Shown here: piece by piece, positions 161-15,074 of the stretch
How the letters are laid out: the number at the start of each line of letters is the position of its first letter
Numbering within the stretch: position 1 is the first letter of the stretch
Assembly (NCBI RefSeq): GCF_000507245.1
Contig: NC_023035.1
Location: 2,957,570 to 3,021,569, forward strand
DNA length: 64,000 bases
Origin: Salinispira pacifica
Lineage (GTDB): Bacteria; Spirochaetota; Spirochaetia; DSM-27196; Salinispiraceae
Direction: 5' to 3'
Translations under genes and position numbers: made by a program
The notes under the pieces: model-generated
Seen by the model: the letters and a program-made list of their open reading frames with translations, nothing else
Told to the model about the DNA's origin: nothing
Database searches by the model: none

Positions 161-1665
161 TCAGGAGATTTGCCCAGAAAAAGCCCGGCCGGCGGGGCTG
201 TCCCCCTCCCGGGAAAACTCATTGAGAAGTCCGGCCATATGCCCGGCGTCGATGCCCCAGGTACGCCCCAGATGGCTGTAGAGGTAATCTCCCAGGGCCA
301 TGAGAGAAGCGAAGCTGTCTCCCCCCGGAGGAAAGAGCCGTGAGACTTCCCGGGGGTAGCGTCCCCGGTTCACCACCAGCTCCCAGTATTTGGCAGCTCT
401 GCTGATTCTCTGCATATCTTCAGCAGAAATGCTTGCACTTGAATGCAGTTCATAGGGAGCTTCAGGGGAAAATTCCATGTTCCATTCATCAATATGCCGT
501 CCCAGGGTGGTTCCCGGAAGATATTTCAGTATCCCCAACTGAAGCTCTGCGGAGCTTCCGGTACCTGGCTGCTTAAGAAGATCCCACAGGCGGTTGAAGC
601 CCGAACCGAAGCTGTTCATATCTTCTCCCGGCAGCCCTGCAATAAGATCGGCATGAATTACCGCATGGGTCCGGGTTACCAGAAAGCTGAGGTTTTCCAT
701 ACTCCTGTCATAGTCCTGTTTCCGGTTTATCCGGGCGGCAGCTTCCCGGTTAAAGGTCTGAATGCCCACTTCCAGGCGAAGCATTCCCGGAGGAAATTGT
801 TTCAGCCTCCCCCTCAGCTCATCAGGCAACCGGTCCGGCACCACCTCAAACTGGACGTAAGCGTCATTCCGCCGTTCATCACGGAATAGCTCCAGAAACA
901 GGTCCAGCACCGCCGCCGCCCGGGAAATATCCAGGTTGAATGTACGGTCAATAAACTTGAAAAAGCGTCCCCCCGCCGCCCAATAGCGCCGGATGGCGGA
1001 AAAATCCCTTCCAGGGGAATATTCCGCACCGCTCCCTGCACACTGGAGAGACAAAACTCACAACGGAAAGGACAGCCTCTGCTGGTTTCGATGTACAGCC
1101 GGCGGTGCACAATATCGTGATCGCTGAGCAGATGGTATGGAAGCCGTATTTTCTCCAGCTGCCGGGGGCTCAACTGCTGAAACCGCCGGGTTTCGGGAAT
1201 CAGCTCTTTTGCACGCCGTCTCAGGCTGGTTTGGCCGGGCCTTCCAGCCTTATCAATTTCGGACAAAATCTTCCTGCAGAGCTCCGGGAAAAGAATTTCC
1301 CCCTCTCCCCGTACGACAAGATCGGCATGTTCAAACAGGGGGTGGGAGGCATAGCCCGGGCCGTCCCCTGCCAGATAGCCCGCCTCCGGTCCGCCCATCA
1401 CAATCACCGAATCCGGAAGCAGATCCCTGAGGGCGGCGGCCAGTTCCCGGGAGTCCTGATGGTTCCACACCGCCACCGAAATACCGATGATCGCCGGGGC
1501 ATGGCTCACAATTTCCCGGATCATGGGCTCACGTCCGCCCCGGCGGGTGCCCTCCACAATTCGGGTGGAAGATTCCAGCTCGCCCATATTGGCCAGAATG
1601 TATCTGAGGCCGAAATTGGGGTGGCTGTACCCTGCATTGACACTGGTGAGTACGATATTGGACAT
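161..1665 (-). CDS. B12-binding domain radical SAM protein, frameshifted as sequenced
   Basis: The N-terminal part (from ATG 1665, GGAGG about 10 bp upstream) has a cobalamin-binding Rossmann-like region (VNAGYSHPNFGLRYI, VMGGPEAG) and the radical SAM cluster motif CPFRCEFC near residue 200. The rest of the SAM barrel (FKFIDRTFN, LRLEVGIQTFN, HADLIAGLPGED) and a DUF4080-like C-terminus continue in another frame. The two join if one G is restored in the coding-strand GGG run at 1006-1008, giving roughly 500 residues. The family cleaves SAM to make a radical; the substrate of this subgroup is not known to me. It is divergent from ettA with a 44-bp gap. Sequence error and true mutation cannot be told apart here. 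Confidence 0.8.
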
Positions 1666-1709: not shown

Positions 1710-3391
1710 ATGAGCAATGGTGAAGACAAAAAAGTAATTTATTCGATGCACAAGGTGAGCCGGCACCACGGAACCCGGCAGGTAATTAAAGATATCAGCC
1801 TCTCATATTTTTACGGCGCAAAGATCGGAGTAATCGGTCTCAACGGTTCGGGAAAGTCCACCCTGCTGAAAATCATGGCTGGTGTGGATACCGAATACAA
1901 CGGTGACATTTCCGTCAGCCCGGGATTCAGTATCGGCTACCTGGAGCAGGAGCCCCAGCTGGAAGCGGGCAAAACCGTCAAGGAGATCGTCTCCGAAGGC
2001 GTCCAGGAGACTGTAGACCTTCTGGCTGAATATGACAAGATTAATGAATCGTTCGCCGATCCCGATGCGGATATGGAGAAGCTTCTTGAGCGTCAGGGTG
2101 AAGTGCAGGAACGGCTGGACGAACTTGACGCCTGGAATCTGGACAGCCGATTGGATCTGGCCATGGATGCCCTGCGCTGCCCCCCACAGGACCAAACCGT
2201 GGATACTCTTTCAGGGGGGAACGCCGGCGGGTGGCCCTGTGCCGGCTCTTGTTGAAGCAGCCGGATATTCTTCTCCTGGATGAGCCCACCAACCATCTGG
2301 ACGCTGAATCCATCGCCTGGCTGGAGCGGCATCTTCAGCAGTATGCGGGAACCATTATTGCGGTTACCCATGACAGATATTTCCTGGATAACGTGGCGGG
2401 CTGGATTCTTGAACTTGACCGGGGAGAAGGGATTCCCTGGAAGGGCAATTACTCAAGCTGGCTTGAACAGAAGCGTCAGCGGCTGGCACAGGAAGAGAAA
2501 AGCGAAAGTCAGCGGCAGAAAACCCTTCAGCGGGAACTTGAGTGGATCAACATGACCCCCAAAGGCCGTCACGCCAAGGCCAAAAGCAGAATCAACAGCT
2601 ATGAACAGCTTCTCAGTCAGGGCGGCCGTGAGCAGCAGAAAGATGTAAAACTCTTTTTTCCTCCCGGCCCCAGGCTTGGCGACATCGTGATTGAAGCGAA
2701 AAGCGTGAAAAAATCATATGGAGACAGGCTTCTCTACGACGACCTGAACTTTGAGCTTCCCCCAGGCGGCGTCATCGGGGTGATCGGACCCAACGGTGCG
2801 GGTAAAACCACCCTCTTCCGGATGATCACCGGAGAGGAAAGCCCCGATTCCGGGGAAATCCGGGTTGGCGATACGGTCAAAATGGGCTTTGTGGATCAGA
2901 TGCGCAGCGAACTGGACGGAAGTAAAACCGTCTGGGAGCAGATCAGCGGAGGCAACGATATGCTCAAGCTGGGCGAACGGCAAATCAACAGCCGGGCGTA
3001 CGTGAGCTGGTTCAATTTCAACGGCTCGGATCAGCAGAAAAAAATCGGCGATCTTTCGGGGGGTGAACGCAACCGCGTGAACCTGGCCATGATGGTGAAA
3101 AGCGCGTCCAACCTGATCCTGCTGGATGAGCCCACAAACGACCTGGATGTGAACACCATGCGGGCGCTGGAAGAAGCTCTGGACAGCTTCGCCGGTTCTG
3201 CGGTGGTGATCAGCCATGACCGATGGTTCCTGGACAGAATATGTACCCACATTCTCGCCTTCGAAGGTGAAAGTCAGGTTGTATGGTTCGACGGGAACTA
3301 CAGCGAATACGAAGAAGACAAGCGCAAGCGTCTGGGCGCAGAGGCGGACCGCCCCCACAGGATCGTGTACCGCAGCCTCACCCGGGACTGA
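1710..3391 (+). CDS. ettA: energy-dependent translational throttle protein EttA (ABC-F), frameshifted as sequenced
   Basis: An ABC-F protein with two ATP-binding cassettes and no membrane segment. It binds the ribosomal E site and gates early elongation according to ATP/ADP. Walker A motifs are GLNGSGKST and GPNGAGKTT; LLLDEPTNHLD and the EttA-typical WILELDRGEG, TKG-like linker and PPGPRLGD segments closely follow E. coli EttA. The first signature motif LSGGERRRVAL is broken: a six-G run at 2214-2219 needs a seventh G to restore the frame. Full length would be about 560 residues, normal for EttA. A TATACT box at 1696-1701 lies 8 bp before the ATG with no Shine-Dalgarno, so the leader may be very short. 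A terminator follows at 3441. Confidence 0.88.
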
Positions 3392-3708: not shown

Positions 3709-5142
3709 CTAGTCGGTAACCGTAAAATCAAAATCACAGATCTCATAACCTTCGGCGATGGTTTTCGGGCGGTCCATGGAGATCATGGGCTGGCGCTCAA
3801 CAAAAAATGCGCCGTCGGCGGCACAGAAGGCGGTGGCCAGCTCGGGATGCCCCAGCTGGTGCACCAGGTCCACGAAGCGGCATTTGGTAACCAGATAGCG
3901 CAGCCGCGGATACTTTACCGTATCCAGACGGTAGTCGGTGTTGGGAAAGCGGTCAACCAGTGAGATCACATCCTCTTCCAGCTGCGCTTCGCTCTTTTTG
4001 AAAAAGTCCGGCCCCATTACCGGTATGCTGTCGCTGAGAAAGCGCATGGCGGAAACGTATATAATCTCCCGTATGATATCCAGGGCCCGGGCGGCGGGAA
4101 GCCGCTTGAGAAGCTCCCGGTACATGAGCACGGCATCAGACACAAGACCTCTGGACTGACGGTCCTTCCAGTCTGATGCCGGGGGGAGATCTTTCCAGAG
4201 CCGGCCCAGAGTTTTCCGAACATACATGGAGACCAGTACCGGCAGCCACAGCAGGGCCCCCTGCCCGCTCCGGCGCATCTGCTGGACCGCCGCTATCCGT
4301 ATGCGGATCCATCGGGCTGCAGGCCCCAGCCGGCGCCGGTCGCCGTGGCGGTCCATATCAATAATACCCATCAGCACCGAGAAAAACGCTATTGTCACGA
4401 TTAATGATGATGCAAGAGTCATGGCGTCCACCATCAGATCCCAGGGCCGGGCCACCGATGCCTGACGGATTCCTCCCAAAAGCAGCCGGAACTGAAATGC
4501 CGATCCGTATATCACCCCCTGGACCAGAACCACCAGAGCGACCCGTTTAAAGCCCAGAAAAATCATCCCCACAAAGGGTATGGCCACCGAGAGTATCTGG
4601 TAGGTCTGAACCAGTCTGGGGCGCTGAAAAATCCGCCGGGCCAGCACCGAGCCGTCAAACACCCCGTAATTGATGCTTGCCAGCACCATCCCTGCGAAGA
4701 AGAGCAGATTCACATACATGAGAAAATTGCTGTCCATGGGACGCAGATTCTGACCTGAGCTGCTGAGCCGGGCAGGTTGCAGAGTCCGTCCCTGGCGGGT
4801 ATGGGCATGCCTGTTCCGTGAGAGCAGACGGAAGAGAAACATGCTGTTCAAATAGGTCAACATGACGAACCACCCGGAATCCAGCCAGGCGAGTTCAAAG
4901 AGTGCAAGGGTGCGGGCCCACATCTCACCTTGAAGAACACGGATTCCCCGGTTCACCATGAAAAATTCCACCAGGGTGTTCACCGCCCCCACCGAATGAA
5001 AGAGGACCAGAGCCCTCCATCGCCGGGCACGGATTAACAGGATGTGAAGAACCACCATCACCGCCAGAGTGGCAAAGAGGGCGTCATAACTGATGAGACG
5101 GTTCATTTCCATAATCTGCATAGCCGTAGACTGCATACGCAC
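3709..5142 (-). CDS. multi-pass membrane protein with C-terminal ATC-hydrolase-like domain
   Basis: 477 residues. The N-terminal half has about six to eight hydrophobic segments (ALFATLAVMVVLHILLI, FFAGMVLASINYGV, LIVTIAFFSVLMGIID among them). After about residue 300 the chain is soluble. The last 80 or so residues (CRFVDLVHQLGHPELATAFC, then AADGAFF, then TIAEGYEICDFDF) match the L-2-amino-thiazoline-4-carboxylic acid hydrolase-like family (PF14196), whose conserved cysteines and aspartate are present. That family is normally a stand-alone soluble protein of about 150-200 residues, so the membrane fusion is notable. Several ATGs near 5106-5142 could be the start and none has a clear ribosome binding site. 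Substrate unknown. Confidence 0.65.
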   Translation of the reverse strand: MRMQSTAMQIMEMNRLISYDALFATLAVMVVLHILLIRARRWRALVLFHSVGAVNTLVEFFMVNRGIRVLQGEMWARTLALFELAWLDSGWFVMLTYLNSMFLFRLLSRNRHAHTRQGRTLQPARLSSSGQNLRPMDSNFLMYVNLLFFAGMVLASINYGVFDGSVLARRIFQRPRLVQTYQILSVAIPFVGMIFLGFKRVALVVLVQGVIYGSAFQFRLLLGGIRQASVARPWDLMVDAMTLASSLIVTIAFFSVLMGIIDMDRHGDRRRLGPAARWIRIRIAAVQQMRRSGQGALLWLPVLVSMYVRKTLGRLWKDLPPASDWKDRQSRGLVSDAVLMYRELLKRLPAARALDIIREIIYVSAMRFLSDSIPVMGPDFFKKSEAQLEEDVISLVDRFPNTDYRLDTVKYPRLRYLVTKCRFVDLVHQLGHPELATAFCAADGAFFVERQPMISMDRPKTIAEGYEICDFDFTVTD

Positions 5143-6095: not shown

Positions 6096-6245
6096 GCCTG
6101 GTTTCCTCTGGCCTGGTTTCCTCTGGCCTGGTTTCCTCTGGCCTGGTTTCCTCTGGCCTGGTTTCCTCTGGCCTGGTTTCCTCTGGCCTGGTTTCCTCTG
6201 GCCGGTTTCCTCTGGCCGGTTTCCTCTGGCCGTTTTTCCTGAGGC
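6096..6245. repeat. 15-bp minisatellite (GCCTGGTTTCCTCTG)n
   Basis: Seven perfect tandem copies of GCCTGGTTTCCTCTG fill 6096-6200. Two 14-bp variants lacking one T (6201-6228) and a degenerate unit to about 6245 follow. The array lies between the lipoprotein start and the end of the FliM-FliG gene. Reading frames through it (FPLAW repeats) lack a plausible gene context and are taken as artefacts. Confidence 0.93.
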
Positions 6246-6263: not shown

Positions 6264-8272
6264 TTACTCGATCATTTCACCCTGCCGCCCCACCAGTACT
6301 TCACCGGCCTCCTCAAGCTCCTTCAGCACCTGGATGATCCGCATACGGGCTCCGTCAACATCCTGTACCCGCACCGGCCCAAGCCCGTCGGATCTTTCCT
6401 TCAGGGAAGCATATTTGGCTTCACCCATTACGTTTCTGAGATGTCCTGCAAGCTCCTCGGGCAGCCGTTTCACCGCCAGGGCAAGATCCCCGGGGTCGGC
6501 CTGGGAAAGGAGTTTTCCCAGGGCTCCGGGATCAAGCATCACCAGATCTTCAAACACGAACATCCGCCGTTTAATTTCATCGGCCAGCTCCGGGTCACTG
6601 CTCTCTAGGGCGGTTACCAGCTCCATTTCAACCATTCTGGGGAGTAATTCAGAATTTCCACCGTTTTCTCAATACCGCTACAGTTCATATGTACAGGGTT
6701 CCGATAGTCATCCAGCTTTCTTCTGATATAGCCGTTCAGGGCGGCATGGAAAAAATCAGGCTGCGAACTGCAGGTGCTCAGCCGGCGAACAATATGCTCC
6801 CGGAGCCGTGATTCACTCCGGGCGAGATAATCCGCCCCCAGGGCATGTCCCAGCTGCATGAGAAGGGCCGCCTGAATACTTACCCGTTCCGGGCTCATGA
6901 GCTGATGAAGAAAGGCGCCCTGATTCACCGTAAGGGTCTGAATAACCCCCGGAGATTCGTCCCCATACTCCCGACCGTCCCCCGGAAATCCATTCTGCAG
7001 CCCCCGGGATGATTGAGCCCAGTGGTTCAGGGCTGCTTTGTCACCGGGCTTTTCCCGGGAGGCATTCAGATTCCCGGAACCCCGTGCCGGATTTCGCCGT
7101 TCATCCCTCCCTTCGGCAGCTGAATCCCCGGACAGCTGCTGAAGCCGGGGAAGGCTGTGTGCCAACCCTTCCCGGATTTCCCGGCGTATCATGGACATAA
7201 GATGATCTTCCCGTTCACGGTCGTTCGAACCCGGAAGGATCGGAGCGATTTCAAGGCGTTCCCCTTCCAGTGAGGACACAGTGCACTTTTCGATATCCTT
7301 TCCGTTGGCCCGGATGCGGCATTGCTCCATTGCGTCAAGTGGAATTTCAAGGCTGTCGCCGGGTTTCAGCCGTTCCAGTTCGCGTAAGGTCAGGGGCTCA
7401 ATAAGCAGCTCCACCCCCGCCTGAACGGGGAGGCGGCTTACCCGGTCTCTACCAAGACTGCTGCCACCGGGCCGTATCCGGGTATACCAGTAGCTGAAGC
7501 TCAGCTGTTCCAGTCTGGATTCCAGGGTGATATACGGATACACACAGCGCAGCTTCCAGCTGCCCAGGGAAGTGCTGATATCGATTTCCGCAAACACCAC
7601 CATTTCATTGGGAGGGATAATCCGGGCAAACTGGGTGTCGTTCTCCATCCCCTCCAGGCGGATATGATCGTCCTCGAAAAACCACCAGGCAGATCCCAGA
7701 TCCCCGGCCAGGGAATGGTAGAGAGGTGAAAGAATTTCAATCTCCAGCTCTGTGAGGGAGGAGACGTTCCCGATTGTTTCGGGACCGCTGGCCACTTGTC
7801 CCCTGGCCACTTGTCCACCGGGCACTTGACCATCAGTTACTGGGCTTCCAGTACCGGGGCTTCCGGGAACGGAGCCGGTTTGTTCAGGCCTGGTTTGCCC
7901 TGACCCTGCAAAACTATCCAGGAGAAGATTGTTTCCCGCCGGGTCGCTTTGGAGCAGGAAGGCACCGGATGATTCATGGAAACGGTACACGGCGAACAGG
8001 GAGCGGGGATTGCATAGGTCCAAAAATTCCTGAAAGGTTGACTGATCCACCATGGATACCGAAATCTTCGGTTTCACTTCCAGAAGACCACTCAGCCGAT
8101 CGGTGAGTTTCCGGGATAGGATCTCGTGTACCAGAGAAATGGTGCGGATCTGGAACCAGCTGAATTTGTCCGGCCTGGTGAAGTCATAAGCCTTGATCCG
8201 CAATTCATCCCCAGCCGTGCCCTTGTGGCCCAGTATTATTTCAGGATCATAGTAATCGGGGTATTCCGGCAT
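6264..8272 (-). CDS. FliM-FliG fusion, flagellar switch protein, frameshifted as sequenced
   Basis: Start at 8272, preceded by GGGGG, overlaps the end of fliN. Residues about 29-268 are a FliM core (YDFTRPDKFS, QIRTISLVHE, FARIIPPNEMVV, YPYITLE). A SpoA domain follows (about 279-346), then a low-complexity linker, then from about 446 a FliG middle/C-terminal region: GIEKTVEILN, MFVFEDLVMLD, GPVRVQDVDGARMRI. The FliG part is split at 6639-6642; adding one C to the CCCC run joins both frames into one 669-residue protein. The N-terminus lacks the LSQxEIDxLL CheY-docking motif of FliM. In the FliG torque helix K264 and R297 (E. coli numbering) seem kept, while R281 is A, D288 is E and D289 is R. 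I know of no natural FliM-FliG fusion; its role in a real C-ring is inference. Confidence 0.82.
7790..7834 (-). repeat. in-frame 15-bp repeat in FliM linker
   Basis: Three 15-bp units (GGCCACTTGTCCCCT and two variants, plus strand) encode a GQV-based pentapeptide repeat in a Pro/Gly/Ser-rich loop at about residues 130-170 of the fusion. The loop interrupts the FliM core between LDSFAGSG and LTELEIEIL, where ordinary FliM has a short turn. Confidence 0.7.
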
Positions 8273-8513
8273 ACCTGCCCCCTTCATCGCTGAGTTTGGT
8301 AATTCGAAGGCCGAAGTTTTCATCAATAATCACCACTTCTCCTTCTGCTACCTTTTCGCCCGAGGCATACAATTCCACAGGCTCTCCGGCAATGGAGGTT
8401 AATTCCACAATAGAGCCTTCACCCATCCGGTGGAGATCCTCAATCCGGATTCTATTTTCTCCCAGTACCACGGTGACCGGTACGGTCACATCCTTGACTG
8501 CATCGAGTTTCAT
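8247..8513 (-). CDS. fliN: flagellar motor switch protein FliN
   Basis: 88 residues, almost entirely a SpoA/FliN domain: VTVPVTVVLGENRIRIEDL, then GSIVELTSIAGEPVELY and GEVVIIDENFGLRIT, the most conserved FliN block. It lacks the long N-terminal extension of many FliN proteins and carries a short C-terminal tail. FliN forms the lower ring of the flagellar C-ring with FliM. The ATG (AGAGGAG upstream) overlaps the stop of the preceding SpoA gene as ATGA, and its own 3' end overlaps the FliM-FliG start by 26 bp, so the three genes are translationally coupled. Confidence 0.9.
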   Translation of the reverse strand: MKLDAVKDVTVPVTVVLGENRIRIEDLHRMGEGSIVELTSIAGEPVELYASGEKVAEGEVVIIDENFGLRITKLSDEGGRYAGIPRLL

Positions 8514-8770
8514 GTTCGCTCCTCTTTCATCTTCCGAATAACAAACCGTATTCCATTCTCATCAGATTTCACCTCGCCCAGGGCGATTACGCTGTCGTTG
8601 AGCATCAGCCGGCATTCCCGGGAATCCCATTTCAAATCCCTCTGCCTCTGTCCGGGAAACAGATATTCAAGCTCTCCCGCAGCTGTGGTGAACTCGGCAA
8701 TCCGGATCCGGGGCTGCAGCCGTATGTTCGATACCGGTGAACTGCCCGGTTTTTTTTCTGTCTTTCCCAT
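8510..8770 (-). CDS. small divergent SpoA/FliN-like protein
   Basis: 86 residues from ATG 8770, which has GGAGG 7 bp upstream (an in-frame start at 8815 lacks this). The C-terminal part (CRLMLNDSVIALGEV, then RFVIRKM) follows the last strands of a SpoA fold, but overall similarity is weak and the usual hydrophobic pattern is eroded. It is the first gene of the operon with fliN and the FliM-FliG fusion, which supports a switch-complex role such as a second SpoA partner. That assignment rests on context as much as on sequence. Confidence 0.6.
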   Translation of the reverse strand: MGKTEKKPGSSPVSNIRLQPRIRIAEFTTAAGELEYLFPGQRQRDLKWDSRECRLMLNDSVIALGEVKSDENGIRFVIRKMKEERT

Positions 8771-8909: not shown

Positions 8910-9665
8910 TCAGCAGGAGCGCCGGAATTCACCGGGAGTCTGCCCCATAATTTTCTTAAAGTAGCGGTTGAAAAAGGATATGTTGTTGTATCCCAGTGAT
9001 ATGCTGATATCCAGGATACTGGATTCCCCCTGCTTGAGCATTCTGCAGGCCTTTTTCACCCGTACCATGTTGATGTACTCAAAGAGCGAATATCCGCTGC
9101 GGGATTTGAATTCCCTGCTGAAACTGCTGGTATTCATGGCACATCTGCGGCGGAAAAACTCAAGAGTGAACTGCTTATCATAATGGAGTTGAATGAAGTT
9201 CATTGCATCTTCCATGCTCCAGGGAGATTTATCTTCAAGGCGGATGTATAATCTGGAGTGAAACAGACAGATGAGGTGGACGGCAATGCTGCGCATCATA
9301 TATTCGCCGGAAGCTGATTCCGCAGATGTCTCACCGGCACAGTGTTCCATGCACCGGGAAACATAATCACAGTCCCCACGCCCTGCTTCCACCTGATGCG
9401 ATCCCCTGGTGAAATATAATCCTGCTTCCGCCAGTTCCTCCATGGTTTCCTGCCAGATCAGTCCGGGTAAGGAGAGGAAGCGGTTGTCACCCATGAGTTC
9501 TATCTTTTCTTTTCTGGACGGAGGGACAAGGATGAGGCACGGAGCATGCACCACCCTGCTGCTCTCATTGTGCAGCAGGGTGACCGCACCTGTCCGCAGC
9601 ACTCCCAGGTGCCCCTGCAGATAGGGGAGAAAATGAACATGTTCCCTGCATTGAATTAATCCCAC
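8910..9665 (-). CDS. AraC family transcriptional regulator
   Basis: 251 residues. The last 100 or so form an AraC/XylS double helix-turn-helix (FRRRCAMNTSSFSREFKSR, then ILDISISLGYNNISFFNRYFKKIMGQTPGEFR). The N-terminal 150 residues look like a small-molecule-sensing cupin domain (LPYLQGHLGVLRTGAVTLL). The listed start is GTG at 9665 without a clear ribosome binding site, so it is uncertain. It sits 74 bp downstream of the MATE exporter gene on the same strand and could be co-transcribed with it; the inducer is unknown. Confidence 0.85.
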   Translation of the reverse strand: MGLIQCREHVHFLPYLQGHLGVLRTGAVTLLHNESSRVVHAPCLILVPPSRKEKIELMGDNRFLSLPGLIWQETMEELAEAGLYFTRGSHQVEAGRGDCDYVSRCMEHCAGETSAESASGEYMMRSIAVHLICLFHSRLYIRLEDKSPWSMEDAMNFIQLHYDKQFTLEFFRRRCAMNTSSFSREFKSRSGYSLFEYINMVRVKKACRMLKQGESSILDISISLGYNNISFFNRYFKKIMGQTPGEFRRSC

Positions 9666-14218: not shown

Positions 14219-15074
14219 GATGCGCCGTTGGTCTCCCGGTACTCCCGGGGGCTGATCCCTTCGAACCGTTTAAACACCGTTCCGAAATAGCTGTCGCTTT
14301 CAAACCCTACACCGGCGGCAATATCATGAATTCTGGCGTGGGGTTCTTTCAGCAGCCGCTCCTTGGCCCGGTCTATCCTCCGCTGATTGATGTACTCGAC
14401 GGGGCGCTGGGTGGTGACCGATTTGAAGAGTTCGCAGAAATACTGGGGGTCACATCGATGCTCCGGGCCAGGTCTTCCAGCCCCAGAGGGCGGTGAAGCT
14501 CCTTTTCTATGAGATCCAGGGCCGGCTGGAGGCGGTGAATGCTGCCGATATGGGAATCTTCCCCGTCCCGCTCCAGATATTTCAGAAAATCCAGAAGAAG
14601 ACTGTAGACGATGGCCGAACCGTCAATGCCCCGCATAAGAGCATTGCTCCCCAGTGTCTGCAGAGCCCGTCTGATGAGGGTCTCCACCGCATTGGGATGG
14701 CTGAGCTGGTACACCCCGGTTTCCGTCATACCCAGATAGTGGAGCATGCTCTCGGCACTGTTTCCGCTGAAGGTAATCCAGTGGACGTACCAGGGATCCT
14801 CCATGCCGTAGTAGCTGTGAGGCTGTCCCGGATAGAGAAGCATGCCCTGTCCCGGTTCAACCCTGTGGGTTTTCCCCCTGTCCTCCAGCACGCCGATTCC
14901 CCGGATGGTCTGAATCCATTGAAAAACCGGGAAACCGAAAGGACGCTCTATGGAGTACTGGTAAAAATCGCACCCGGCACCGATTAGCTGAAACGGGAGT
15001 TCGTTCTCAATTTCCGTGGGTTTGGACAGGATGAAATCCCCGTCCCTTCGTCCGAGATCATGCTGATTCTTCAC
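14215..15074 (-). CDS. AraC family regulator of the galactoside locus, frameshifted as sequenced
   Basis: Starts at GTG 15074 with AGGAG 8 bp upstream. The first 210 residues hold the AraC sensor cupin (IQTIRGIGVLEDRGKTHRV, LYPGQPHSYYG) and the first helix of the DNA-binding domain (LGLEDLARSIDVTP). The rest, QYFCELFKSVTTQRPVEYINQ and IAAGVGFESDSYFGTVFKR, lies in another frame. One C added to the coding-strand CCCCC run at 14445-14449 restores a normal protein of about 286 residues. It is divergent from the binding-protein gene at 15388, so it most likely activates the alpha/beta-galactoside operon. Whether the break is real is not decidable here. Confidence 0.85.

Follow-up and report, generated by a model that had tools for sequence, protein, structure and literature searches.

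A natural FliM-FliG fusion protein in spirochaetes, encoded in a cassette with fliN as a candidate accessory module of the flagellar switch

RESULTS

A FliM-FliG fusion gene in Salinispira pacifica and its relatives

The spirochaete Salinispira pacifica carries a gene, here called fliMG, in which the flagellar switch proteins FliM and FliG are joined. The fusion is natural and not an artefact of the S. pacifica sequence, and it is patchily distributed in spirochaetes. As far as the literature searched extends, it is a previously undescribed variant of the flagellar switch; no published FliM-FliG fusion was found in searches whose coverage leaves out most subscription journals, and a profile search of the PDB returned no solved chain that spans both the FliM and the FliG halves.

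The gene lies on the minus strand of the window, the 64,000 nt stretch of the genome that was analysed, and in the deposited sequence it consists of two overlapping open reading frames in different frames. The first (8272-6614, 552 aa counted from the ATG at 8272) encodes an N-terminal segment without the CheY-binding motif, the FliM middle domain, a SpoA domain, a linker and FliG_M, and it aligns with intact fusions. The second (6635-6264, 123 aa) encodes FliG_C. Pfam placed the FliM middle domain at residues 29-126 of the 552-aa part (E 3.4e-24), the SpoA domain (FliMN_C) at residues 277-336 (E 2.4e-6, above the cut-off) and FliG_M at residues 455-521 with an E value of 0.012, below the cut-off; FliG_C was recognized in the 123-aa part with an E value of 1e-27. 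Residues 2-123 of this part are 39% identical to the C-terminus of an intact 623-aa frame in genome G003. The initial annotation, made from the letters of the sequence, had described a single gene whose junction shows only once a C is added at 6639-6642, and its coordinates, motifs and two frames all agree with the ORF translation and Pfam results. It had also assigned FliM, SpoA and FliG_M/FliG_C domains to the product. The domain identities are not a matter of chance, because intact homologues in other genomes align throughout, junction included.

Using the FliG_C piece as query, a search of relatives identified three genomes with open frames of 619-623 aa, all uninterrupted and with FliM, FliG_M and FliG_C each exceeding the Pfam cut-offs. 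Profile searches of 395 sampled Spirochaetia genomes recovered the same architecture in uninterrupted fusion ORFs of about 600-680 aa in 23 of them, representing 11 families. In a phylum-wide spirochaete sample the fusion was present in 9/393 genomes, two of them outside the class Spirochaetia. Examples of MAG contigs with the fusion are SKVS01000181.1, JAPLSM010000212.1 and QKAK01000200.1, and genome G528 has two copies. A single-sequence pattern search of contigs failed to detect relatives when the broken 552-aa part was the query, although the profile search did recover them; 398 genomes from the phylum of Anaerovibrio gave no match at 1e-110, in a search that lacked a positive control. The proposal that FliM and FliG are naturally fused thus stands on more than 25 intact homologues with identical domain order, and the search of spirochaete genomes that the initial annotation had recommended yields one-frame fusions in relatives, beside separate canonical genes.

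A tree of the FliG M and C domains is compatible with a single origin of the fusion. Canonical FliGs form a clade free of fusions (support 97/86), four FliGs of a second type form a separate clade (100/100), and the fusions all fall to one side of one branch, with modest support (75/64). A tree of the FliM domain, with long branches and an incomplete thorough search, did not show where the fusion arose.

Fold and motifs of the fusion protein

In intact members the FliM middle domain matched Pfam with E values from 3.8e-29 to 1.9e-65. FliG_M and FliG_C were above the cut-off in members L033-L035, in which SpoA gave no match at E values up to 1. No separate FliG_N domain was found by Pfam; weak FliG_N matches in L034 and L035 overlie FliG_M. 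The structure prediction that the initial annotation had suggested was run on a homologue, L043. The AlphaFold model (pLDDT 72, pTM 0.50) is laid out as FliM_M, a weaker SpoA region, a long helix predicted to link SpoA to FliG_M, and FliG_M-FliG_C. Both halves match solved FliM and FliG folds, with Z scores of 28.7 for the FliM middle domain, about 17 for FliG MC and 16.3 for FliG_C, while matches of the SpoA region to SpoA folds were weak (Z about 5).

The N-terminal CheY-P binding peptide of FliM, which we take to be LSQxEIDxLL, is absent from the window and from 25 of 26 members. Only L042 (2868-4724, plus strand) retains a version, LTKEDVDGLL, along with both docking motifs, GGxG and EHPQ; this member may represent an early form of the fusion. 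FliM's GGxG motif is retained in 13/26 members and the exact EHPQ motif of FliG_M in 8/26; these losses were compared by eye among related members, and on account of this kinship no statistical conclusion is drawn from them. We would guess that such losses are tolerated since the FliM and FliG domains are now tethered.

FliG_C, with its MFVF motif and residues like K264 and R297 of Escherichia coli FliG, is retained in 25/26 members. The exception, L187 (1480-3105, minus strand), stops short of FliG_C but keeps the rest, with araC coming straight after it. The position of E. coli K264 is K or R in all 25 FliG_C domains and that of R297 is R or K in 23; R281 is retained in one, and aspartate occupies the D289 position in four. 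The fusions do not match the full charge pattern of the torque helix (K264, R281, D288, D289 and R297, E. coli numbering); their stator-facing charges are altered. For the roles of these residues we presume what is generally held of FliG. Charges of the torque helix, together with the GXXG and EHPQR loops, have been reported to be important (PMC7355467).

The fusion gene belongs to a conserved cassette

Directly upstream of fliMG on the same strand is a gene (8247..8513) whose product scores as FliN (Pfam FliMN_C, 4.7e-21; NCBIfam TIGR02480, 85.1 bits against a cut-off of 84.05). It is preceded by a SpoA-like gene (8510..8770, minus strand, with 8815 as a possible earlier start), the end of which overlaps fliN by 4 bases. 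By itself the SpoA-like protein has no Pfam match; a profile built from six homologues matched the FliN profile in hhalign with a probability of 90 and an E value of 1.6e-6. The order SpoA-like gene, fliN, fliMG on one strand was found in 27 of 27 distinct loci, frequently with short overlaps.

An AraC-type transcriptional regulator lies directly upstream on the same strand in the window (8910..9665; Pfam HTH_18, 1.1e-20). Such a regulator is adjacent in 23/27 loci, 18 times directly upstream and five times downstream, and the four loci without it run into a contig end upstream. The HTH_18/HTH_AraC domain of the adjacent regulator was confirmed by Pfam in ten loci as well as in the window. We do not claim that the cassette AraC proteins are one regulator family, as their N-terminal domains match each other in few pairs only. 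The initial annotation had identified the fusion gene correctly and had overlooked the fliN, SpoA-like and AraC genes as well as the absence of FliG_N.

Two other features of the window were noted. Just downstream of the fusion gene, at 6100-6240, is a short tandem repeat with a TGGTTTCCTCTGGCC-like unit. At 3709-5142 (minus strand) a 477-aa protein is encoded with an L-2-amino-thiazoline-4-carboxylic acid hydrolase domain at its C-terminus only; its N-terminal part is membrane-like in appearance.

Carriers of the fusion retain a canonical switch

A separate canonical FliM was found in 18 of 18 fusion genomes tested, and a separate canonical FliG in 16 of them; the two that lack one are incomplete genomes, G003 (57% complete) and G042 (77%). 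Some of the 18 are the same assembly under two handles (e.g. G323/G446 and G373/G443), so that independent genomes are slightly fewer. FliF was found in 11 of 12 carriers tested, and S. pacifica itself is motile with two periplasmic flagella (PMC4511686). Since the tested carriers keep separate FliM and FliG, the fusion is an addition to the motor's normal switch and not its sole switch. The suggestion that it would fix a 1:1 ratio of FliM to FliG in the switch is not supported for genomes that also encode both proteins separately.

The frame break in S. pacifica

The frame of fliMG is lost at a C run (6639..6642, minus strand), as seen by three-frame translation, and at least 25 homologues are uninterrupted. 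The genome of strain L21-RPul-D2T (CP006939.1) was assembled by HGAP from PacBio reads, with short reads for checking (PMC4511686). Other genes of the window are broken similarly. The ettA gene (1710-3391, plus strand) changes frame at a G run, so that positions 2-166 and 170-552 of the TIGR03719 profile lie in separate ORFs. A B12-binding radical SAM gene (161-1665, minus strand) has two overlapping ORFs near 814-1054, the break apparently being at a G run. The DNA-binding end of an AraC-family gene (14373-15074, minus strand) resumes in another frame past a C run. Several conserved genes within 15 kb are broken at G or C runs, and this points to an assembly error in fliMG, most likely a sequencing slip; the ettA split is likely an assembly error too.

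The break could also be a real mutation, which would leave S. pacifica with either a non-functional copy or one that yields two polypeptides. That the locus is a decaying pseudogene, and the window holds a remnant, would fit with the broken frame and with the FliM middle domain, which has the lowest Pfam FliM scores among the tested fusions and matches in two pieces. We consider this decidedly improbable, however, as the 123-codon tail past the break stays open and retains FliG_C, the fliN, SpoA-like and araC genes of the cassette are all intact, and the highly conserved ettA is broken in the same manner, which points to sequence error. The C run at the junction might also suggest programmed ribosomal frameshifting that yields both a FliM-FliG_M protein and full-length FliMG; with every intact homologue in one frame, and unrelated genes in the window similarly broken, there is very little to recommend this explanation.

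DISCUSSION

We propose, with moderate confidence, that the cassette is an AraC-regulated accessory module of the C-ring in which FliMG and FliN join the rotor and tune its switching or torque, the break in S. pacifica being likely an assembly error. The operon would supply the FliM-FliG fusion (FliM_M, SpoA, helical linker, FliG_M and FliG_C), together with FliN and another small SpoA protein. On activation of the AraC regulator, units of FliMG and FliN would join the existing rotor at the level of FliM and FliN, each bringing its own FliG torque domain. Such units would not answer to CheY-P and would engage the stator differently, so that their dose would tune the switching bias or torque of the motor proportionally and make it less responsive to CheY. 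Entry at this level is conceivable because the FliM and FliN of running motors are known to be exchanged, in contrast to the stable FliF and FliG (PMC10128058). Judged from its domains, FliMG without FliG_N cannot hold FliF through the known contact. Nor does docking into the canonical ring appear assured, since GGxG is gone from half of the members and the exact EHPQ from most. The C-ring is perhaps just one of several places where the module could act. More tentatively, the cassette might build a second type of C-ring unit, with FliM and FliG in one chain and a FliN and SpoA protein of its own, that could be exchanged into existing motors on demand and turn chemotaxis-controlled rotation into chemotaxis-blind or altered-torque rotation.

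Two other roles were considered, and we believe that both are unlikely. FliMG could replace FliM and FliG in the motor of one pole, or in one growth state, and impose a fixed asymmetry of rotation. Such a role has been suggested for Borrelia FliG1, which has an asymmetric location and is not needed for assembly (PMC7225975), and a protein that is CheY-blind, as judged by its motif, and is accompanied by its own FliN would suit such a task. FliMG lacks the FliG_N domain for attachment to FliF, however, and its rarity in the phylum-wide sample is difficult to reconcile with a problem of asymmetry that every bipolar spirochaete has. FliMG-FliN could instead act off the ring, as a cytoplasmic decoy or assembly factor that titrates FliM, FliN, FliG or export components and reduces flagellation when the AraC protein is active. 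The absence of a FliF-binding domain, the degenerate FliM-FliG docking motifs of many members, and L187, which has lost FliG_C and retained the remainder, are all in line with titration. A simple decoy would have no use, on the other hand, for a FliG_C with MFVF and K264/R297-like residues, which nearly all members preserve.

The cassette shares its domains and folds (FliM_M, SpoA, FliG_M, FliG_C and FliN) with the canonical C-ring proteins FliM, FliG and FliN. In contrast to the canonical switch, it has FliM and FliG in one chain without FliG_N, nearly always lacks the CheY-binding peptide in the fusion, and sits as a separate unit with an adjacent regulator while coexisting with the canonical set. 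FliF-FliG fusions, known from engineered and mutant strains, likewise place two rotor proteins in one chain, and working motors have been built with them (PMC7355467, PMC10128058). These tie FliG to the membrane ring, whereas the spirochaete fusion carries FliG without its FliF-binding domain, behind FliM. FliY is also a composite switch protein, with a FliM_M-like domain and SpoA (a FliN-like C-terminus), but it has no FliG part, and the middle domain of FliY reportedly does not bind FliG (PMC7355467). The FliG1 and FliG2 proteins of spirochaetes are likewise extra FliG copies beside the main one, with special roles possible (PMC7225975); unlike the fusion, they are free-standing FliG proteins.

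That the order FliM_M-SpoA-FliG_M-FliG_C is tolerated by evolution in a single chain bears on models of the way in which adjacent subunits of the ring share FliG_M and FliM. The finding also bears on how the composition of the switch ring changes during rotation and on how the motors at the two cell poles of spirochaetes are coordinated. A natural FliM-FliG protein without a FliF anchor, mostly without the CheY peptide and encoded beside its own regulator, is a ready-made test case for these questions.
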